Origin: Armatimonadota bacterium
Lineage (GTDB): Bacteria > Armatimonadota > UBA5829 > DTJY01
Direction: 5' to 3'
DNA length: 64,000 bases
Assembly: GCA_017993055.1 (NCBI GenBank)
Contig: JAGONM010000003.1
Span: 62,001-126,000, forward strand
Under the pieces are notes generated by a model, which saw only the letters and a program-made list of their open reading frames with translations, did no database searches and had not been told where the DNA came from. Both the position numbers and the translations under genes were made by a program. Shown here in pieces: positions 6,532-50,511 of this stretch; position 1 is the first letter of the stretch; every line of letters begins with the position of its first letter.

Positions 6532-7623
6532 ATGCCCAGGCTTTTCGGAAAGTCCTATACGAGGGATGAGTTGCTCAAGAGAGTGGGGGACTTGTCTCAG
6601 ATCGGTGGGGTCCGCGTTCACGAGCGTGCGGACGGTTTCGAGCGCGGCGTCCGAACCGCCGACTTCCGCACCGGCACCGGCCTGAACTTCTCGGTACTTA
6701 TCGACAGGGGTCTCGATATCTCCTCTGCCGAGTTCTGCGGGCAGTCGCTTGCTTGGCGATCATCTACCTCTGATGTTGCTCCCCAGTACTTTGAGGAGCC
6801 GGGACTCCGCTGGCTGCGGAGTTTCTACGGCGGCCTGGTAGTGACTTGCGGGCTTACATACGCCGGCGCTCCGACGGTTGACCAGGGCAGGGAACTCGGC
6901 CTCCACGGGCGTATATCGAACACGCCGGCGACCAACGTCTATGCCGATGGCGAGTGGCAGGGCGACGATTACGTCATGTGGGTCAGGGGCAGGATGCGCG
7001 AAACAGTCGTCTTTGGCGAGAATATCGAACTGGATCGCAAGATCACGGCCAGACTCGGCGAGTCGAAGATCTGGATTCACGACAAGGTGACGAACATGGG
7101 CTACCAGGAGATGGAGCACATGATCCTCTATCACATCAACCTCGGCTTCCCGGTGATTGACGAGGGCAGCCGGCTGATCGGCCCGATCAAAGACTCCCAG
7201 CCGCGCGATGCCGAGGCCGAGATAGACAGGGAGAAGTACGCCGAGTTCCCCGCGCCGACCGTCGGCTTCAAGGAGAAGTGCTACTACCTCGACATGATCC
7301 CTGATGCGAAGGGGGATGTGTCGGCGGGTATCGTCAATCCCGGCTTCAACGGCGGGCAGGGCTTCGGGGTCTACGTGAAGTATCCGAAGAGGGAACTCCC
7401 CGAGTTCACCGAGTGGAAGATGAACGATGCGGGTACATACGTCGTCGGCATGGAGCCCGCCAACTGCCGCGTCGAGGGCCGAGCGAAAGAGAGAGCGCGT
7501 GGCGCCCTCCAGTTCCTCAAACCGGGCGAGATTCGCGAGTACCACCTCGAGATCGGACTTCTGAACTCGCCAGACGATATCAGGGAGTTTGAGGCGCGGG
7601 CGAGAGCGGCTCTTGGCGTTTGA
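6532..7623 (+). CDS. DUF4432 family protein (galactose-mutarotase-like fold)
   Basis: The 363-residue soluble protein matches the DUF4432 pattern: TADFRTGTGLNFSVLIDRGLDISSAEFCG near the start, YGGLVVTCGLTYAG and GLHGRISNTPA in the middle, and a C-terminal GREYHLEIG-like strand. The fold is related to aldose 1-epimerases, so sugar binding is expected, but the reaction is unknown to me. It follows the NfnB-like gene by 19 bases with a strong AAGGAGG site. Its stop codon lies inside the -35 box of the menaquinone operon promoter. Confidence 0.75.
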   Translation: MPRLFGKSYTRDELLKRVGDLSQIGGVRVHERADGFERGVRTADFRTGTGLNFSVLIDRGLDISSAEFCGQSLAWRSSTSDVAPQYFEEPGLRWLRSFYGGLVVTCGLTYAGAPTVDQGRELGLHGRISNTPATNVYADGEWQGDDYVMWVRGRMRETVVFGENIELDRKITARLGESKIWIHDKVTNMGYQEMEHMILYHINLGFPVIDEGSRLIGPIKDSQPRDAEAEIDREKYAEFPAPTVGFKEKCYYLDMIPDAKGDVSAGIVNPGFNGGQGFGVYVKYPKRELPEFTEWKMNDAGTYVVGMEPANCRVEGRAKERARGALQFLKPGEIREYHLEIGLLNSPDDIREFEARARAALGV

Positions 7624-7685: not shown

Positions 7686-9128
7686 ATGGCATACAAGGAC
7701 CTGCACGACTTCATAGCCCACCTGGACAAGGCCGGACAGCTCAAGCGCATCGGCAGCGAGCTTAGTCCGGTTCTCGAGATTCCCGAAGTCGCCGACCGAG
7801 TGATGAGAGACGGCGGGCCGGCGCTCCTCTTCGAGCATCCCACGGGATACGACATCCCGCTGCTCATCAACTCCATGGGATCCACGGGGCGTATGGCGAT
7901 GGCTCTCGGAGTCGAGTCGGTCGAGCAGATCGCTCGCGAGATCGAGGACCTGTTGCGCCTCGATGTTCCCGATACACTTATGGGCAAGATCGCGATGCTC
8001 CCGAAGTACGGCAAGCTCGCGGGATACATGCCGAAGACGGTCAAGTCCGCCAGGTGCCAGGAGATCGTCAAGACGGACGATGCCTCTCTGGACGAACTCC
8101 CGATCCTCCACTGCTGGCCGGGGGATGGAGGCCGCTTCGTCACCCTCCCGATGGTCTTCACCAGGGACCCGCACACCCGCGTGCGAAACGTCGGCATGTA
8201 TCGGATGCACGTCTACGATGAGAAGACCACCGGCATGCACTGGCATCCCCACAAGGTCGGCGCCCGGCACTATGCGGAGTACGAGCGGCTCGGGCGGCGC
8301 ATGGAAGTTGCGGTTGGGCTCGGCGGCGATCCGGCGATCATCTACGCGGCGACAGCGCCTCTCCCCGAGGATTTCGACGAGATGATCTTCGCGGGATTCC
8401 TGCGGAAGTCGGCTGTCGAGATGGTCAGGTGCAAGACGATTGACATCGAGGTCCCCGCGGATGCGGAGATCGTCATCGAGGGCCATGTTGACCCGGGTGA
8501 GCGGCGGGTGGAAGGCCCGTTCGGCGACCACACCGGCTACTACTCGCTCGCCGACCAGTTCCCGGTCTTCCACGTCACCTGCATAACGCGCAGGAAGGAT
8601 GCGATCTATCCGGCGACCATCGTTGGCAGGCCGCCCAAGGAAGATTGCTTCATGGCGAAGGCGACCGAACGCATCTTCCTTCCACTCCTTCGCTTGCAGC
8701 TTCCTGAGATCGTGGATATCAACCTCCCGATCGAAGGCGTGTTCCACAACCTCGCCGTCGTGAGTATTGCGAAGCGCTATCCCGGCCACGCACGGAAGGT
8801 CATGCACGCTCTCTGGGGCATGGGGCAGATGGCGTTCACAAAGATGATCATAGTCGTGGACGAGCGTGTGGACGTCCAGGATATGAGCGAGGTTCTCTGG
8901 CGGCTGGGCAACAATGTGAACCCGAAGCGGGACATAGAGTTCGTCCAGGGTCCGCTGGATATCCTCGATCACGCTTCGTCGGAACTCGGCTACGGAAACA
9001 AGATGGGATTCGACGCGACTAAGAAGCTCCCAAGCGAGGGACATTCCCGTGAATGGCCCGATGAGATCGTGATGAGCCCTGACGTTGTCAGGAAGATTGA
9101 TTCCGTCTGGGATGAGTTGGGCCTCTAG
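7686..9128 (+). CDS. mqnL: UbiD-family decarboxylase of the futalosine menaquinone pathway
   Basis: This prenylated-FMN-dependent decarboxylase has 480 residues and the family features. These include an N-terminal MAYKDLHDFIAHLDKAGQLKRI, a core with NVGMYRMHVYDEKTTGMHWHPHK, the active-site stretch VEGPFGDHTGYYS, and a C-terminal DATKKLPSEG. In this operon it should remove the carboxylate of the prenylated 1,4-dihydroxy-6-naphthoate. The directly following ubiX-like gene would make its cofactor. It is the first gene behind the operon promoter. UbiD enzymes act on many aromatic acids, so the substrate assignment rests on the neighbours. Confidence 0.85.
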   Translation: MAYKDLHDFIAHLDKAGQLKRIGSELSPVLEIPEVADRVMRDGGPALLFEHPTGYDIPLLINSMGSTGRMAMALGVESVEQIAREIEDLLRLDVPDTLMGKIAMLPKYGKLAGYMPKTVKSARCQEIVKTDDASLDELPILHCWPGDGGRFVTLPMVFTRDPHTRVRNVGMYRMHVYDEKTTGMHWHPHKVGARHYAEYERLGRRMEVAVGLGGDPAIIYAATAPLPEDFDEMIFAGFLRKSAVEMVRCKTIDIEVPADAEIVIEGHVDPGERRVEGPFGDHTGYYSLADQFPVFHVTCITRRKDAIYPATIVGRPPKEDCFMAKATERIFLPLLRLQLPEIVDINLPIEGVFHNLAVVSIAKRYPGHARKVMHALWGMGQMAFTKMIIVVDERVDVQDMSEVLWRLGNNVNPKRDIEFVQGPLDILDHASSELGYGNKMGFDATKKLPSEGHSREWPDEIVMSPDVVRKIDSVWDELGL

Positions 9129-9132
9129 AAGT

Positions 9133-9723
9133 ATGAGAGTGGAACGCACCCTTGTAGTCGCGATAACCGGAGCGAGCGGAAGTGTCTACGGAGTCCGCTT
9201 TCTCGAGAGCATTCTCCGTCACTACGACCGCATCTACACGATCGTGTCGGACAACGCGAGGACCGTCATCAGGACGGAAGTTGGTCTCTATGCGGACGCC
9301 GATGAGTCCCTCGGCACGTTGTCAGAGAAGATCACGCTCTGCTCGCCGAACGACCTGACCGCGCCGCCGGCCAGCGGGTCGGTCGCGTCCGAAGGCATGG
9401 TCATCATCCCGTGCTCCATGGGTACCGCGGGTCGGATCGCGTCAGGCGTATCGAGCGACCTTATCACACGATCCGCCGACGTCTGCCTGAAGGAGAATCG
9501 CAAGCTGATCATGGTCGTTCGCGAGACGCCGTTCAACCTCATCCATCTCCGCAATCTCACGCGGCTCGCGGAAGCGGGGGCGATCATCCTGCCCGCATCG
9601 CCTGCCTTCTATTCGCATCCGAAGACGGTTGATGACATGGTGGAGTTCGTCGTAGCACGAGTGATCCAGCAGTTGGGTTTCGTGCACCCCTCGGCGCCAG
9701 AGTGGCATGGAATCGAGGAGTAG
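9133..9723 (+). CDS. mqnM: UbiX-family flavin prenyltransferase
   Basis: This enzyme makes prenylated FMN for UbiD-type decarboxylases. The 196 residues contain the flavin-binding VVAITGASGSVYGVRFLE at the N-terminus, the VIIPCSMGTAGRIASGVSSDLITRSADV segment, and the conserved RETPFNLIHLRNLTRLAEAGAIILPASPAFY. The ATG at 9133 follows the ubiD stop by four bases, and an in-frame upstream start would overlap ubiD. It overlaps the ubiA-like gene by 17 bases. Confidence 0.9.
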   Translation: MRVERTLVVAITGASGSVYGVRFLESILRHYDRIYTIVSDNARTVIRTEVGLYADADESLGTLSEKITLCSPNDLTAPPASGSVASEGMVIIPCSMGTAGRIASGVSSDLITRSADVCLKENRKLIMVVRETPFNLIHLRNLTRLAEAGAIILPASPAFYSHPKTVDDMVEFVVARVIQQLGFVHPSAPEWHGIEE

Positions 9724-10591
9724 CGCCGTGTTGGCGAAAGTGCGCACGATCCTCGAGATGATCAAGTTCGAGCACACGATCTTCGCGCTCCCATTTGCGC
9801 TCACCAGCGCGTTCCTCGCTGCGAACGGAATGCCGTCGCTTTGGGCGATGCTCTGGATCCTCGTCGCGATGGTCGGCGCCAGAAGCTCCGCGATGGCATT
9901 CAACCGCATCGCCGATCTTCACTACGACAGGCTGAATGCGCGAACCGCCGGGCGCGCTCTTCCGATCGGTGCGGTCAGGCTGGCCGAGGTTTGGTGGTTC
10001 ACCCTCGGCTCGGCAGCCGTCTTCGTGCTGGCGTCGTGGATGCTGAATCCACTGGCCTTCGCGCTCTCGCCGGTTGCGCTGTTGATCGTTCTGGGCTACT
10101 CCTACACTAAGCGTTTCACGTCGCTCTCGCATCTGGTGCTTGGCCTTGCGCTCGGGATTGCCCCCGTCGGCGCCTGGATCGCGGTGACGGGACGGCTCGA
10201 CTTCGCGCCGATGGTGCTATCGGCGGCGGTGATGTTCTGGACCGCCGGCTTCGACATCATCTACTCGCTCCAGGACCTGGAGTTCGACCGTAAACAGGGG
10301 CTCTTCTCAATCCCGAAGGCGCTCGGACCGGCTGCAGGGCTCCTCGTTTCGCGGGGATTTCACCTGGCGGCAGTGCTTCTGCTGACATGGTTCGGGATGA
10401 TACTTGAACTCGGGACCTTGTACTGGGTCGGGACGGCCCTCGTTGCCGGGTTGCTGGCCTACGAGCAGGGCCTCGTCAGGCCGGACGATTACAGCAGAGT
10501 GAACGTCGCATTCTTCAGCACGAACGGATTAGTAAGCATAGGCTTTCTTATCTTTGCTTTGGTTGATCTGTTGGTCAGAAGGGCTGCTTGA
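9707..10591 (+). CDS. mqnP: UbiA-like prenyltransferase of the futalosine pathway
   Basis: A 294-residue membrane prenyltransferase with about nine hydrophobic segments. The first Asp-rich motif, NRIADLHYDRLNARTAGR (N-x3-D-x3-D), and the second, DIIYSLQDLEFDRKQGLFSIP, are both present and bind the Mg-pyrophosphate of the polyprenyl donor. In this setting the acceptor should be 1,4-dihydroxy-6-naphthoate. The start may be the ATG at 9707 or the GTG at 9728. The stop overlaps the mqnE ATG (ATGA). Confidence 0.88.
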   Translation: MESRSSAVLAKVRTILEMIKFEHTIFALPFALTSAFLAANGMPSLWAMLWILVAMVGARSSAMAFNRIADLHYDRLNARTAGRALPIGAVRLAEVWWFTLGSAAVFVLASWMLNPLAFALSPVALLIVLGYSYTKRFTSLSHLVLGLALGIAPVGAWIAVTGRLDFAPMVLSAAVMFWTAGFDIIYSLQDLEFDRKQGLFSIPKALGPAAGLLVSRGFHLAAVLLLTWFGMILELGTLYWVGTALVAGLLAYEQGLVRPDDYSRVNVAFFSTNGLVSIGFLIFALVDLLVRRAA

Positions 10592-11685
10592 TGAGAGAAC
10601 TGGCGCTGAAGTCCGATATCGGCGACATAGTCGAGAAGGTGGAGCGGGCGGTTCGCCTTGACTTCGAGGATGGCGTGCGGCTCTTCGCGTCCGACGACCT
10701 GTTGGCGATCGGCTGGGCGGCCAACTTCGTCCGCCGGCGAATGAACGGCGACCGGACCTACTACATCGTCAACCGGCATATCAACTACAGCAACCTCTGC
10801 AAGAACCACTGCCGGTTCTGCGCGTTCCGGAAGAACGAGGGCGAGCAGGGTGCATACACGATGAGCCTCGAAGAGGTGATCTGTCGGGCGGACGAAGTCC
10901 GGCAGGAGATTGATTACACCGAACTGCACATCGTCGGGAGTCTGCACCCTGATCTGCCGTTCAGCTACTACGTGGAGATGCTCTCTGCACTCAGGCGCTT
11001 GATGCCGGCCGTCCACATTCAGGCGTTCACGGCGGTCGAGATCGATCACCTGGCAAAGATCGCCGGCCTCAGCATCAGGGACACGCTGATCCGGCTTCGC
11101 GACGCGGGCCTCGGATCACTTCCCGGAGGAGGGGCTGAGGTCTTCGCTCCCAGAATCCGGAAGAACCTGTGTGCCGAGAAGCTCTCATCAGACGGCTGGC
11201 TCGATGTGATGCGCACCGCCCACCAACTCGGCATCCGCTCGAACGCCACGATGCTCTACGGACACATAGAGACCCCTGAGGAGCGCATAGACCACATGCT
11301 CCGTCTGAGGGATCTGCAGGACGAGACCGGCGGATTCCTAGCGTTCATCCCGCTCGCGTTCCACCCCCAGGGCACGGACATCTCGAACTTCGGGAAGCGC
11401 TCGGGGATCGACGACTTGAAGATGATCGCCGTTTCTCGGCTGATGCTCGACAACTTCGACCACATAAAGGTTTTCTGGATCATGCTCGGCCTCAAGCTGG
11501 CACAGGTCGCCCTCCATTTCGGCGCGGATGACTTCGACGGCACGGTTGTCGAGGAGAAGATCACCCACTCCGCCGGGGCGGAGACCCCCCAGGGCCTCTC
11601 CGTTCCCGAGATACTCCGGCTGATCTCCGAGACAGGCACGATCCCCGTCGAGCGCGATACTCTCTACAACGAGGTAGAGAGATGA
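10591..11685 (+). CDS. mqnE: Aminofutalosine synthase (radical SAM)
   Basis: The 364-residue radical SAM enzyme joins 3-enolpyruvyl-benzoate to the adenosyl part of SAM to give 6-amino-6-deoxyfutalosine. The cluster motif C-x3-C-x2-C (CKNHCRFCAF) is followed by the MqnE-type segment ELHIVGSLHPDLPFSYYVEML. A C-terminal half shared with MqnC contains SLPGGGAEVF and FIPLAFHPQGT. The upstream and downstream overlaps (ATGA at both ends) show tight coupling with mqnP and mqnA. It is distinguished from its paralogue mqnC by the HPDLPFSYY segment. Confidence 0.9.
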   Translation: MRELALKSDIGDIVEKVERAVRLDFEDGVRLFASDDLLAIGWAANFVRRRMNGDRTYYIVNRHINYSNLCKNHCRFCAFRKNEGEQGAYTMSLEEVICRADEVRQEIDYTELHIVGSLHPDLPFSYYVEMLSALRRLMPAVHIQAFTAVEIDHLAKIAGLSIRDTLIRLRDAGLGSLPGGGAEVFAPRIRKNLCAEKLSSDGWLDVMRTAHQLGIRSNATMLYGHIETPEERIDHMLRLRDLQDETGGFLAFIPLAFHPQGTDISNFGKRSGIDDLKMIAVSRLMLDNFDHIKVFWIMLGLKLAQVALHFGADDFDGTVVEEKITHSAGAETPQGLSVPEILRLISETGTIPVERDTLYNEVER

Positions 11686-12485
11686 AGATCGGTGCAGTGC
11701 CATATTTGAACGGCAGGCCGTTAGTCCATGGCCTCGAACGCGAACCGCGAGTCGAGTTGATCACCGACGTCCCTTCGAGGTTGGCGCAGAAACTCCAGGA
11801 CAAGGAGATCGCGGCCGGACTTCTGTCGGTCTTCGCATGCTTCGAGAACCCGGGCCTGCAGATGGTACCCGGGATCTGCATCGGCTGCGACGGCCCGGCG
11901 GATAGCGTCCGGATCTTCCTCGGCAAGCCTGTCGATCAGTTGCGCACCGTCGCCCTCGATACCAGTTCGCTCTCGTCGGTCAATCTCGCGCGAATCATTC
12001 TTCGCGAGCGCTACGGGATCGTGCCGGATTTCGTGGATATGCGGCCGGACGTCGAGGAGATGCTCGACCTGTGCGACGCCGCGGTCACGATCGGCGACAT
12101 CACGATGACCTCGCCCCAGGACCGCTGGCCGATGCTCGATCTGGGCGAGGAATGGAAGTTGCTCACTGGCCTGCCGTTCGTCTTCGCGGTTTGGGCGGTG
12201 AATCCCGACATGGCATCTCCCGAGTTGGTCGACATTCTCACCGAGGCCAGGCAGCGGGGCATGGCATCGCTTGACGAGATCAGCGAGTCGGAGTCGAAGC
12301 GCCTCGACCTGCCGTCTGAGGTCTGTTACAGGTATCTCAGCGAGATCATGGACTACGATATGACCGAGCGGCACTACCAGGCGCTGGAGTTGTTCCGGCA
12401 GAAATCCTGCGCCATGGTGCCCGGCCTTCGCATGGGCCCGGTGTCGGTGTTCTGCGACTCGCAGAATGGAATCTACCTGAGATGA
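11682..12485 (+). CDS. mqnA: Chorismate dehydratase
   Basis: The 267-residue MqnA/MqnD-fold protein resembles a periplasmic-binding-type fold but has no signal peptide. It dehydrates chorismate to 3-enolpyruvyl-benzoate, the first step of the futalosine pathway. The N-terminal IGAVPYLNGRPLVHGL and the SSLSSVNLARIILRERYG segment are typical of MqnA and differ from MqnD. It overlaps mqnE and mqnC by four bases at each end. Confidence 0.9.
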   Translation: MKIGAVPYLNGRPLVHGLEREPRVELITDVPSRLAQKLQDKEIAAGLLSVFACFENPGLQMVPGICIGCDGPADSVRIFLGKPVDQLRTVALDTSSLSSVNLARIILRERYGIVPDFVDMRPDVEEMLDLCDAAVTIGDITMTSPQDRWPMLDLGEEWKLLTGLPFVFAVWAVNPDMASPELVDILTEARQRGMASLDEISESESKRLDLPSEVCYRYLSEIMDYDMTERHYQALELFRQKSCAMVPGLRMGPVSVFCDSQNGIYLR

Positions 12486-13552
12486 CGGACTGGGTCGCCA
12501 TCCTTGAGGGAGTCCTGGCGGGTCAGCGACTGGGCGGATCAGACGCCCTGACGCTCTTCGAGTCGGGCCAACTCCTCGAACTGGGGTTCGCCGCCGATGC
12601 CGTCTGCCTCCGGATGCATCCCGAGCCGTACCGGACCTACGTCGTAGACCGGAACATCAACTACACGAACATCTGCACCTCCAAGTGCCGATTCTGCGCC
12701 TTCTGGCGGGATGCCGAGTCGTCAGAGGCGTACCTGCTCTCAGACGAGGAGATCCACCGAAAGATACAAGAGGCGGTCGAACTCGGCGCGACCCAGATTC
12801 TGATGCAAGGCGGCCTGCATCCTGACCTGAGAATTGAGTGGTACGAGCGGTTGGTTAGTGGCATCAAAGAGCGCTTCGACATAGACCTGCACTCGTTCTC
12901 CCCACCGGAGATCGTCAACATCGCCAAGGTTTCGGGTCTCACGATAGAGGAAGTCATCGGTCGGCTTAGGGGTGCGGGGCTCGACTCGCTTCCGGGTGGC
13001 GGGGCGGAGATTCTCTCCAACTCCATCCGGAGAGCGGTGAGCCCCGGGAAGTGCTCCCCCGACCAGTGGATCGGCGTCATGGAGACCGCTCATACCCTCG
13101 GGATGCGTACTACGGCCACCATGATGTTCGGCCACGCGGAAACCTACCCTGACCGCGTCGAGCATCTGTCGCGGATCAGGACCCTCCAGGACCGTACCGG
13201 CGGGTTCACGGCATTCATTCCCTGGACCTTCCAGCCGTCGAACACCGATATCGGCGGTGAGCAGGTCGGGGCGTACGAGTACCTGCGTACCCTGGCAATA
13301 TCCAGGCTCTTCCTCGACAACGTTGCCAACCTGCAGGCATCGTGGGTCACGCAGGGGGCGAAGATCGGCCAGATATCGCTGAAGTTCGGGGCGAACGATC
13401 TCGGCAGCACGATGATCGAGGAGAACGTCGTTGCGGCGGCCGGTATCCGGTTCCGCATGAGTGAGCATGAGTTGCGTGAGGCGATATCCGGGGCTGGGTA
13501 CACGCCGCGCAAGAGGAATACATACTACGATCTGGTGGAAGCCAATGAGTGA
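12482..13552 (+). CDS. mqnC: Cyclic dehypoxanthinyl futalosine synthase (radical SAM)
   Basis: This radical SAM enzyme cyclises dehypoxanthine futalosine. In 356 residues it has C-x3-C-x2-C (CTSKCRFCAF), then AYLLSDEEIHRKIQEAVELGATQILMQGGLHPDL, which is diagnostic of MqnC over MqnE. SLPGGGAEILS, TATMMFGHAET and FIPWTFQPSNT follow. The start overlaps mqnA (ATGA) and the end overlaps the phosphorylase gene, so it sits centrally in the coupled operon. Confidence 0.92.
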   Translation: MTDWVAILEGVLAGQRLGGSDALTLFESGQLLELGFAADAVCLRMHPEPYRTYVVDRNINYTNICTSKCRFCAFWRDAESSEAYLLSDEEIHRKIQEAVELGATQILMQGGLHPDLRIEWYERLVSGIKERFDIDLHSFSPPEIVNIAKVSGLTIEEVIGRLRGAGLDSLPGGGAEILSNSIRRAVSPGKCSPDQWIGVMETAHTLGMRTTATMMFGHAETYPDRVEHLSRIRTLQDRTGGFTAFIPWTFQPSNTDIGGEQVGAYEYLRTLAISRLFLDNVANLQASWVTQGAKIGQISLKFGANDLGSTMIEENVVAAAGIRFRMSEHELREAISGAGYTPRKRNTYYDLVEANE

Positions 13553-14426
13553 CGCAATCGCAGTCATAGGCGGGAGCGGCGCGTACACGCTCCTGCAGAA
13601 CGGAAGCTTTGCCGGGGAGCGAGTCGGACCGATCTCGACGCCGTTCGGCGACTCGCAGCCGATCCACCGGTTTGCCGCGGCCGACGCCGAGTTCCTCTTC
13701 CTCTCGCGCCACGGTGATAAGGGCTACCATATCGCGGCGCCGTCTGTGAATTATCGCGCGAACATCTGGGCGCTCAAGGATCTGGGGACTGCGCGTATCA
13801 TCTCCTGGTCGGGACCCGGCGCGATAGACGATTCCTTGACTATCGGTCAGTACGTGCTGCCGGACGATCTGCTCGACGAGACGAAGCGCCGGACGTACAC
13901 GTTCTTCGAGGGTCTCGGGATCGGTTTCGTCCGCCAGAATCCCGTCTTCTGCCCGGAGCTTCTAGTCAACGCATCCACAGTGCTCTCCGACCTCGATGCC
14001 GAGCACCGAGATACCGCGACCTACGTCTGCACCGAGGGTCCGCGCCTGGAAACGCCCGCCGAGATCCGCAAGTATAAGGCGTTTGGCGGCGATCTGGTCG
14101 GCATGACGCTCGTCCCGGAGGTCTTCCTCGCCAAGGAACTGGAGATGTGCTATATGTCGATCTGCTACGTGACGAACTACGCCGAGGGCATCAAGCCTAG
14201 CCGGTTCGTCCCCGGCGTGCTCTTCGAGGGGCTGATCAGCGATGAGCAGAGGCGGATCGTCGATGCGGCGGTCGGGCGATTCCCGGAGATCATCCGCGAA
14301 CTGGTGAGCAGGCTCTCCAGCAGGGAGCGGACCTGTGCCTGCGGCCGCCTCATGGAGCGCTACCGCCGCCGTGGCGACATAGGCGAGGACTGGCATACCT
14401 GGGTCGAACGCCGTTCTACCCCTTGA
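13545..14426 (+). CDS. MTAP/PNP-family nucleoside phosphorylase, likely acting on (amino)futalosine
   Basis: The 293-residue protein has the purine-nucleoside phosphorylase family II layout: AVIGGSGAY at the start, phosphate-binding FLSRHGDKGYHIAAPSVNYRANIWALKDLG, TYTFFEGLG, and the substrate-proximal CTEGPRLETPAEI and VGMTLVPEVFLAKELEMCY. The usual family stretch ending in AVGSL is replaced by SWSGPGAIDD, so the substrate may differ from methylthioadenosine. It is the last gene of the mqn operon and overlaps mqnC. I infer that it removes the base from (amino)futalosine in place of MqnB or MTAN. An MTA-salvage role remains possible. The C-terminus carries a CAC pair. Confidence 0.78.
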   Translation: MSDAIAVIGGSGAYTLLQNGSFAGERVGPISTPFGDSQPIHRFAAADAEFLFLSRHGDKGYHIAAPSVNYRANIWALKDLGTARIISWSGPGAIDDSLTIGQYVLPDDLLDETKRRTYTFFEGLGIGFVRQNPVFCPELLVNASTVLSDLDAEHRDTATYVCTEGPRLETPAEIRKYKAFGGDLVGMTLVPEVFLAKELEMCYMSICYVTNYAEGIKPSRFVPGVLFEGLISDEQRRIVDAAVGRFPEIIRELVSRLSSRERTCACGRLMERYRRRGDIGEDWHTWVERRSTP

Positions 14427-49139: not shown

Positions 49140-49241
49140 TACAGTCCGCGGATTGCAGTGGAATCTCAATGACGATCCCGGTGTGACTGGCGATTTTCAG
49201 CGGAATTGACCGCATGGAGTGCCGGGGTCGAGAAATGCCGA

Positions 49242-49278
49242 TCGCCTGGGCAGACGCCGTAGGTGCGTGCCCAGGCGA
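49242..49278 (+). terminator. Long hairpin between nrdJ and the AICAR transformylase gene
   Basis: A perfect 11-bp stem (TCGCCTGGGCA with its complement) encloses a 15-base loop that can itself pair. The following TATCATTTG is only weakly T-rich, so it could be a terminator or a leader structure. Confidence 0.45.
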
Positions 49279-49335: not shown

Positions 49336-50511
49336 ATGACAGAGCGAAGTATCCCGTTGCGGTACGGGCTGAATCCGCATCAGAAGCCGGCCAAGGTCGT
49401 GCTGTTTGACCACAGCCCGCAGATCGAGGTTCTGAGCGGGGCGCCGGGCTACATCAATATGCTCGATGCTCTCAACGGCTGGCAACTCGTGAAAGAGCTT
49501 CGAGAGGCGATAGGACTTCCGGCGGCGGCATCGTTCAAGCACGTCAGTCCGGCAGGGGCGGCGGTCGGAATCCCGCTTAGCGATGTCCTGACGAAAGCGT
49601 ACTTCGTGGAAGACATGGAGCTTTCACCTCTCGCAACGGCCTATGCGCGTGCTCGTGGGGCGGACCGCGTCTCGTCGTTCGGCGATTTCGTCTCGCTGAG
49701 TGACACATGCGACCTCTCGACTGCCCGATTGATCGCCCGCGAGGTCTCCGACGGGGTGATCGCTCCGGAATACGATACCGATGCGCTGGCGCTTCTCAAG
49801 GCGAAGCGCAAGGGCAAGTACTTGGTCATTCGGATTGATCCTGAATACCGCCGGCGCGAGATGGAGTCACGCGAGGTTCTCGGCGTCGCCCTGCAGCAGC
49901 ACGCGAACGACGTCCGTATAGGCCCCGAACTCTTCGGCAGGGTCGTGACCGCAGAGAGGGACTTGCCCGACGGCGCTATCAGGGATATGATGATCGCTCT
50001 GATCACGCTCAAGTACACGCAGTCGAACTCAGCCTGCTTCGCGCAAGACGGTCAGGCGATCGGCAACGGGGCCGGCCAGCAGTCGCGCGTCCACTGCACG
50101 CGTCTCGCTGGCGGGAAGGCCGATCTGTGGTGGCTGAGGCAGCATCCACGAGTCCTCGATCTGCAGTTCCGCGAGGGGATGAACCGCGCCGAGAAGAACA
50201 ACGCGATCGACCTCTTTCTGCTGGAGGACATCACCCCGCCGGAGGAGGCTCAGATGATGGAGAACCTGATTGGCAGCCCGAAGAGGCTTACGAAGGGCGA
50301 AAAGCGCAAGTGGCTCGACAAGCTCGCGGGAGTTTCGCTCGGCTCGGACGCATACTTTCCGTTCAGGGACAGCATTGACCGGGCCGGCAGGACAGGCGTG
50401 AAGTACATCGCGGAACCTGGCGGATCACAGCGGGATGAGGAGATCATCGCCGCCGCCGACGGGTACGGTATGGTGATGGCCTTCACCGGGCTCAGGCTCT
50501 TCCACCATTGA
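49336..50511 (+). CDS. Stand-alone AICAR transformylase (PurH transformylase domain)
   Basis: This enzyme formylates AICAR with 10-formyl-tetrahydrofolate, the penultimate purine step. The 391 residues cover only the transformylase part of PurH. The LRYGLNPHQKPA start, catalytic FKHVSPAGAA (Lys-His), SNSACFAQDGQAIGNGAGQQSRVHCTRLAG and KYIAEPGGSQRDEEI are all present. The N-terminal IMP cyclohydrolase (MGS) domain is absent, so that step must be encoded elsewhere. AAGGAGG precedes the ATG. Confidence 0.9.
   Translation: MTERSIPLRYGLNPHQKPAKVVLFDHSPQIEVLSGAPGYINMLDALNGWQLVKELREAIGLPAAASFKHVSPAGAAVGIPLSDVLTKAYFVEDMELSPLATAYARARGADRVSSFGDFVSLSDTCDLSTARLIAREVSDGVIAPEYDTDALALLKAKRKGKYLVIRIDPEYRRREMESREVLGVALQQHANDVRIGPELFGRVVTAERDLPDGAIRDMMIALITLKYTQSNSACFAQDGQAIGNGAGQQSRVHCTRLAGGKADLWWLRQHPRVLDLQFREGMNRAEKNNAIDLFLLEDITPPEEAQMMENLIGSPKRLTKGEKRKWLDKLAGVSLGSDAYFPFRDSIDRAGRTGVKYIAEPGGSQRDEEIIAAADGYGMVMAFTGLRLFHH

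Follow-up and report, generated by a model that had tools for sequence, protein, structure and literature searches.

A proposed futalosine phosphorylase, MqnZ, in a menaquinone operon from a genome lacking MqnB and MqnD

A 64,000-nucleotide stretch of an Armatimonadota bacterium (assembly GCA_017993055.1, contig JAGONM010000003.1, positions 62,001 to 126,000; hereafter the window) carries an operon of the futalosine route to menaquinone at 7686-14426 on the forward strand. Its last gene, mqnZ (13545-14426, +; PF01048, 114 bits), encodes an MqnZ-type phosphorylase that belongs to a clade with invariant active-site motifs of its own, and the genome around it lacks both MqnB and MqnD. We propose, with slightly better than even confidence and largely from residue patterns and gene content, that mqnZ encodes a futalosine phosphorylase that replaces MqnB, with a route through a C1-phosphate leading around MqnD. 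An earlier note on this DNA had pointed to an MTAP-type phosphorylase standing in the operon in place of the MqnB or MTAN hydrolases, and the gene is real: the open reading frame has an ATG start, encodes 293 amino acids and overlaps mqnC by 8 bases. The loss of MqnD, a hypoxanthine-type base site and a deaminase partner go beyond that note, and the MqnD gap means that the route itself has changed, where a mere exchange of hydrolases had been in question.

Co-loss of MqnB and MqnD

PF01048 has three real matches in the genome of the window (3.72 Mb, 99.6% complete), all of them MTAP-type: the window gene, a true MTAP gene on contig C1 (TIGR01694, 297 bits, above the cut-off) that adjoins an MtnA gene, and an MTIP/PNP-like gene on contig C21 that falls below every cut-off. 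Neither MqnB nor MTAN was found by this genome scan combined with the MqnB model TIGR03664, which has no match in the genome at E≤1e-5, the window phosphorylase included; what the earlier note had proposed for the operon extends to an absence of mqnB and mtn elsewhere. The sole PF02621 gene, in the genome scan and by its position in a tree, is mqnA, so the genome has no mqnD. The new downstream logic that the note expected of a phosphorolytic branch is required because MqnD is missing.

The clade is widespread. Among 201 Armatimonadota genomes (the phylum set), 29 carry a member at E≤2e-92, and a further genome has a short match at 1.7e-49; ordinary MTAPs start at 2e-47. These 30 MqnZ-positive genomes spread over nine families, mqnC lies within 1.5 kb of mqnZ in 18 of the 30 loci, and strong TIGR03664 matches (E<1e-20) occur in none of the 30. 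A wider genome scan gave at least 80 loci. The best 80 come from Planctomycetota (among them the anammox bacteria Kuenenia, Scalindua and other Brocadiales), Nitrospinota, Nitrospirota, Desulfurobacteriaceae, Armatimonadota, Poribacteria, Spirochaetales and others; Aquificota are also counted among the phyla of the clade.

PF02621, the family of MqnA and MqnD, is present in 26 of the 30 MqnZ-positive phylum genomes. Two or more matches occur in one of these 26, compared with 94 of the 119 MqnZ-negative phylum genomes that have the family (Fisher p 3e-13, uncorrected for relatedness). The lone exception, G088, has an mqnA that runs off a contig end and is apparently one split gene. In 50 MqnZ-positive genomes taken from the best 80 loci, mostly from other phyla, a single PF02621 match occurs in 40 and two occur in three, while seven lack the family. 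In a tree of 54 PF02621 rows, MqnA and MqnD stand on either side of a branch of 4.0 changes per site, and the only genomes with a real MqnD are G206 and G249, the two matches of G215 being adjacent parts of one gene. MqnD therefore stands at 2 of 69 MqnZ-positive genomes with mqnA (26 from the phylum and 43 from the best 80 loci), a count for which the tree took in part of the single copies and the phylum calls rest on scores. The best MqnZ-positive phylum match scores about 190 bits and MqnD controls, drawn from the top of the list, well above 200, although some phylum MqnDs (families f17 and f25) also score about 190, so that scores alone cannot exclude an MqnD replacing a missing mqnA.

A search of a plasmid collection found no close relative of MqnZ, the best listed reaching 39.6% identity. 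One plasmid locus, that of Streptomyces sp. NBC_00304 (L327), has mqnE, mqnA, mqnC and a futalosine hydrolase gene beside macrolide glycosyltransferases, a set that we take to resemble PM100117-type clusters for naphthoquinone biosynthesis.

Active site of the MqnZ clade

We place the window gene in a variant futalosine pathway and not with MTAP, MTIP or MqnB. It scores 205 bits against the MTAP equivalog TIGR01694 (cut-off 274.85) and 163 bits against the MTIP model NF006599 (cut-off 223). Its predicted structure (pLDDT 84, pTM 0.86) has the trimeric-MTAP fold: the best 50 PDB matches listed in a fold search are all MTAP or MTIP, with E values from 1.8e-21. In the protein tree, a branch with SH-aLRT 100 sets the clade apart; the earlier note had asked for a phylogeny. 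We rejected identity with MTAP on the score below cut-off and on the replaced Asp pair of the base site described below; MTAP and the window phosphorylase share the fold and the phosphate residues, and differ in this Asp pair and in the 5′ pocket, where a His gives way to Phe together with an invariant Arg.

Residues were counted in an alignment of 97 full-length clade members against 10 MTAP-like relatives. The window gene has the phosphate-binding Arg, His and Thr of trimeric nucleoside phosphorylase I. R55 and H56 (codons at 13707-13712, +), presumably equivalent to R60 and H61 of human MTAP, are both conserved in 97/97, T188 in 95/97 and S11 in 92/97; the phosphate site is thus conserved. 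This is where the earlier note's interpretation only partly holds: the absence of mqnB and mtn, the altered specificity and the need for new downstream logic stand, and its other option, that the enzyme acts as a hydrolase, finds no support. A futalosine hydrolase on an MTAP scaffold, acting as a plain MqnB substitute, would fill a glycosidic-bond step that is otherwise unfilled, but such an enzyme would not release the cell from MqnD, and with R55, H56 and T188 so conserved we regard it as scarcely credible. The likeness to MqnB and MTAN ends with the glycosidic bond, presumably the same one that MqnZ cleaves, since MqnZ has no TIGR03664 match.

Around this conserved phosphate site, the clade carries substitutions of its own. 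The motif SWSGPGAIDD (13803-13832, +; SWSGPGAI being residues 87-94) replaces [TSN]-A-V-G-S-L. Its core W-S-G-P marks the clade, with W88 in 97/97 against 0/10 relatives, S89 in 86/97 (Thr in 10), G90 in 94/97 and P91 in 94/97 against 0/10. The earlier note had read this motif as a hint of altered specificity, and the clade-invariant substitutions support that reading. A second segment, F128-V-R130-Q (13926-13937, +), has R130 in 97/97 members and 0/10 relatives, and F128 in 91/97 where relatives have His in 10/10. In the part of PMC5147791 that deals with SmMTAP, H131 of that enzyme extends across the subunit boundary into the adjoining active site. R130 lies two residues after the position of this His and is therefore assigned to the 5′-substituent pocket, where we infer that it would bind the benzoate carboxylate of futalosine. 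An invariant Arg and Trp at the site of MTAP's small 5′ group would be suited to a carboxyphenyl ketone.

The base site, N211-Y-A-E214 (14175-14186, +), has Asn and Ala where MTAP has two Asp, with N211 in 94/97 and A213 in 95/97 members; E214 is present in 97/97 members and in 0/10 relatives. The Asp pair that reads the adenine 6-amino group, which we take to be D220 and D222 of human MTAP, is thus missing from the window gene. The C21 paralogue shares the N211/A213 arrangement, and MTIP comes close to it. For example, Pseudomonas aeruginosa MTIP (PDB 3ozb), whose crystal holds hypoxanthine according to the entry title, shares the trimeric-MTAP fold and a base-site Asn, and reads Asn-Pro-Ala in the aligned stretch. 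MTIP differs from MqnZ in being without W88, R130 and the C-terminal tail, and its substrate has a small 5′-methylthio group; in its pathway, as outlined in the relevant portion of PMC6302742, a deaminase acts before MTIP.

The three exceptions at N211 all come from genomes of family f22 without mqnA, where mqnZ-like genes (L034, L035 and L037) have Arg instead; one reading is that these genes are decaying or repurposed. The clade also has, at 14334-14402 (+), C264-x-C266 and a specific C-terminal tail, MERYRRRGDIGEDWHTW, with both cysteines in 97/97, W283 in 75/97 (18 gaps) and W286 in 78/97 (19 gaps). The tail is missing in 10/10 relatives.

A phosphorolytic route and its alternatives

Loss of MqnB alone would need only a substitute hydrolase. 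That MqnB and MqnD are lost together, with MqnC and the MqnL, MqnM and MqnP types retained, suggests a different intermediate between the MqnB and MqnD steps. MqnD opens the sugar and needs a free anomeric centre; phosphorolysis would explain its loss because a C1 phosphate blocks that centre. In the proposed route, MqnZ, acting either upstream or downstream of the MqnC ring closure, would split a hypoxanthine nucleoside with phosphate, giving hypoxanthine and 1-phosphorylated dehypoxanthine futalosine (DHFL). Futalosine as the substrate and phosphorolysis as the chemistry are both probable on the residue evidence. The C1 phosphate would then alter all later steps, leaving MqnD unused and eventually lost, and this branch past MqnD seems to us somewhat favoured. 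An MtnA-type isomerase could turn the aldose-1-phosphate into a ketose-1-phosphate, and a retro-aldol at the C3′-C4′ bond could yield dihydroxyacetone phosphate (DHAP) and 1,4-dihydroxy-6-naphthoate; for these last two steps our confidence falls clearly short of even. 1,4-Dihydroxy-6-naphthoate would be handled as usual by the MqnP, MqnL and MqnM homologues of the operon.

The model for these steps is the DHAP shunt (MtnP or MtnN plus MtnK, MtnA and Ald2), in which, in the sections of PMC10986504 that set it out, 5-substituted ribose-1-phosphates pass through the MtnA isomerase and an aldolase to DHAP. Both schemes take a phosphorylated 5-substituted ribose through an isomerase and a retro-aldol to DHAP. 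They differ in that the sugar entering here would be that of (cyclised) futalosine, the carbonyl product would be a quinol precursor, and no Ald2 partner was found; the retro-aldol could fall to a different aldolase or be nearly spontaneous.

The operon has the parts that this route would need upstream and downstream. The futalosine genes mqnA, mqnE and mqnC are all present by profile matches, and the tight order of mqnL, M, P, E, A and C given in the earlier note is as described, with neighbours at most +2 bases apart and otherwise overlapping. All genes lie on the forward strand. The UbiD-family decarboxylase of MqnL type (7686-9128; TIGR03701, 645 bits, cut-off 495.9) is followed by the UbiX-family flavin prenyltransferase of MqnM type (9130-9723; TIGR00421, 197 bits, cut-off 108.9) and the UbiA-family prenyltransferase of MqnP type (9707-10591; TIGR01475, 311 bits, cut-off 180.8), which scores under the cut-off of the MqnP models. 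Aminofutalosine synthase MqnE (10588-11685; TIGR03700, 509 bits, cut-off 434.55), chorismate dehydratase MqnA (11682-12485; PF02621, 180 bits, in the MqnA and not the MqnD clade of the tree) and cyclic dehypoxanthinyl futalosine synthase MqnC (12482-13552; TIGR03699, 494 bits, cut-off 428.1) complete the set ahead of mqnZ. Since MqnL, MqnM and MqnP types are kept, 1,4-dihydroxy-6-naphthoate is presumably still an intermediate.

A DUF4432 gene (6532-7623, +; PF14486, 349 bits) ends 62 bases before mqnL, and the order NfnB-type gene, DUF4432, mqnL recurs in G034 (L041, 66% identity). We take DUF4432 to belong to a sugar-mutarotase-like superfamily; this sugar-handling protein at the head of the operon could belong to the pathway variant or be an unrelated neighbour. 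Elsewhere in the window, a ZMP/ZTP riboswitch (49173-49258, +; RF01750, 57 bits) lies just 5′ of an AICAR transformylase-type gene (49336-50511, +; PF01808, 192 bits), its expected target.

The one recurring operon partner of mqnZ is an amidohydrolase resembling aminofutalosine deaminase, found in 27 of 81 mqnZ regions and directly 3′ of mqnZ in 23. It is nearest to the TRZ/ATZ and aminofutalosine deaminase models (NF006269, 151 bits, cut-off 320). No other partner recurs: among 71 neighbour proteins, no Pfam family has more than two members. A deaminase partner, together with the Asn base site, indicates futalosine rather than aminofutalosine as the substrate.

The same partner also scores 137 bits against a 5′-deoxyadenosine deaminase model, below the cut-off as is its aminofutalosine deaminase score, which opens a second use for it. 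MqnC is a radical SAM enzyme that releases 5′-deoxyadenosine, so deaminated 5′-deoxyadenosine or methylthioadenosine could be a 5′-substituted inosine that MqnZ splits in salvage, with no role in DHFL synthesis; in the portion of PMC6302742 on Methanocaldococcus jannaschii (M. jannaschii), a promiscuous MtiP performs salvage chemistry of such a kind. We consider this quite unlikely, as it leaves the anticorrelation with MqnD and the absence of MqnB unexplained, a methyl group needs no buried invariant Arg and Trp, the genome has separate MTAP and MTIP-like enzymes, and mqnA accompanies mqnZ in 26 of the 30 phylum genomes.

A SurE-type 5′/3′-nucleotidase gene lies directly 3′ of mqnZ in 10 of the 30 phylum regions, all in family f2, where it is seen in 10 of 11 MqnZ-positive genomes, and a HAD-type hydrolase lies upstream in a Brocadiaceae locus (L125). 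Such phosphatases could act on DHFL-1-phosphate after phosphorolysis, leaving MqnC to work on ordinary DHFL and an unrecognised protein to replace MqnD. That SurE is limited to one family, where the same gene order also takes in unrelated genes, and that the joint loss of MqnD and MqnB would go unexplained, make this unlikely in our view, if less so than salvage.

Several observations weigh against futalosine phosphorolysis followed by DHAP-shunt chemistry. First, a deaminase profile at E≤1e-30 has no match in the window's genome or in G101, G125 and G034 of the same family (PF00962 was not searched), although the base site implies a substrate that arrives deaminated; in this family, either another deaminase serves or MqnZ takes the amino form. 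The deaminase is also equally common in MqnZ-positive (37/44) and MqnD-positive (22/24) genomes. Second, MtnA failed as a discriminating partner. The window's genome has it (G000:C1:28779-29648; TIGR00512, 440 bits, cut-off 279), as do 71 of 76 MqnZ-positive genomes and all 19 high-quality ones, the five without it including G249 with its real MqnD; but it does not set them apart, because MqnZ-negative phylum genomes have it in 134 of 171 cases (27/30 in MqnZ-positive ones, p 0.21). Third, the class II aldolase family PF00596 was rejected as a universal partner: it is present in only 37 of the 54 genomes tested and was not found in 17, most anammox ones included, so an Ald2-type enzyme is not universal. 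Fourth, linkage of mqnZ to an isomerase or aldolase is confined to one spirochaete. Additionally, MqnC shows no clear mark of a phosphate pocket, having gained no basic residue in MqnZ-positive genomes. Between 30 such MqnCs and five canonical ones (three from streptomycetes, one from Paenibacillus whose MqnB and MqnD status is unchecked, and one from an MqnD-positive Armatimonadota genome), only D56 (30/30 against 0/5) and P142 (29/30 against 0/5) tell the two groups apart.

PF00596 genes occur in other settings. The window's genome has two, one on contig C20 and another that reads as AraD adjoining a kinase. In Desulfurobacteriaceae (G213 and G224), mqnA has a PF00596 gene at a distance of about 3 kb, which we set aside because its neighbours read as tyrA-, lysA- and signalling-like and not as mqn genes. 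In three genomes of family f8 (G003, G018 and G054; loci L287, L291 and L303), deaminase and PF00596 aldolase genes adjoin mqnA; these genomes keep at least two PF02621 genes, and MqnB is not among the matches listed for them.

The spirochaete locus (L147, 5258-10864; Spirochaetales, genome without PF02621) holds an mqnZ that keeps the key clade residues, in a same-strand run together with a divergent MtnA-type isomerase gene (PRK05720, 290 bits, cut-off 271; TIGR00512, 214 bits, cut-off 279) and what look like genes for an ECF-type transporter. It is a lone case that speaks for the isomerase step. This set could be a salvage version that imports a futalosine-like compound. In the widest form of the proposal, which takes in this salvage version and which we put forward only tentatively, a second futalosine pathway in at least six phyla, with anammox Planctomycetota and Nitrospina among its bearers, would have replaced MqnB and MqnD by phosphorolysis and DHAP-shunt chemistry. 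MqnC would cyclise either a phosphorylated form or one that is still a nucleoside, and DHAP would carry the three leftover carbons of the ribose back into metabolism.

Precedent and significance

In the passages of Ravcheev and Thiele (2016; PMC4746308) on this gene, mqnZ is a PF01048 gene beside mqnC or mqnE in Firmicutes without mqnD, and it is proposed there as an mqnD replacement with no mechanism given. The resemblance to the window gene, also of PF01048 beside mqnE, mqnA and mqnC in a genome without mqnD, is by description and not by sequence: the sequences compared include no Firmicutes member such as MHY_27640. The tallies in the part of Zhi et al. (2014) that compares MqnD with MqnA (16/24 in Firmicutes and 7/9 in Aquificae) have fewer MqnD than MqnA, which fits an MqnD-less variant. 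It follows from the 2016 proposal that MqnZ might itself perform the MqnD reaction, given the same family, operon context and absence of mqnD. We think this very improbable: the MqnD step is a C-C cleavage, MqnZ keeps an MTAP-type active site with its phosphate and base residues, and MqnB, also missing, would need another replacement.

A phosphorylase acting on futalosine is reported nowhere in the literature searched; the section of PMC6302742 on promiscuous MtiP speculates that it could serve futalosine. What is new relative to the mqnZ of 2016 is the additional loss of mqnB, the residue case, the deaminase partner and the spread across phyla. Accounts of the futalosine route to menaquinone treat MqnB and MqnD as fixed steps, and with both lost in bacteria of the nitrogen cycle, annotation pipelines will call the pathway broken. 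The candidate variant occurs in many phyla, anammox and marine nitrite-oxidising bacteria among them, and it centres on an enzyme for which two points can be decided directly: whether futalosine is its substrate and whether it depends on phosphate. The proposed variant ties quinone synthesis to the chemistry of methionine salvage and the DHAP shunt, a kinship that, within the portion of PMC6302742 that bears on it, has so far been suggested mainly by similar first steps.

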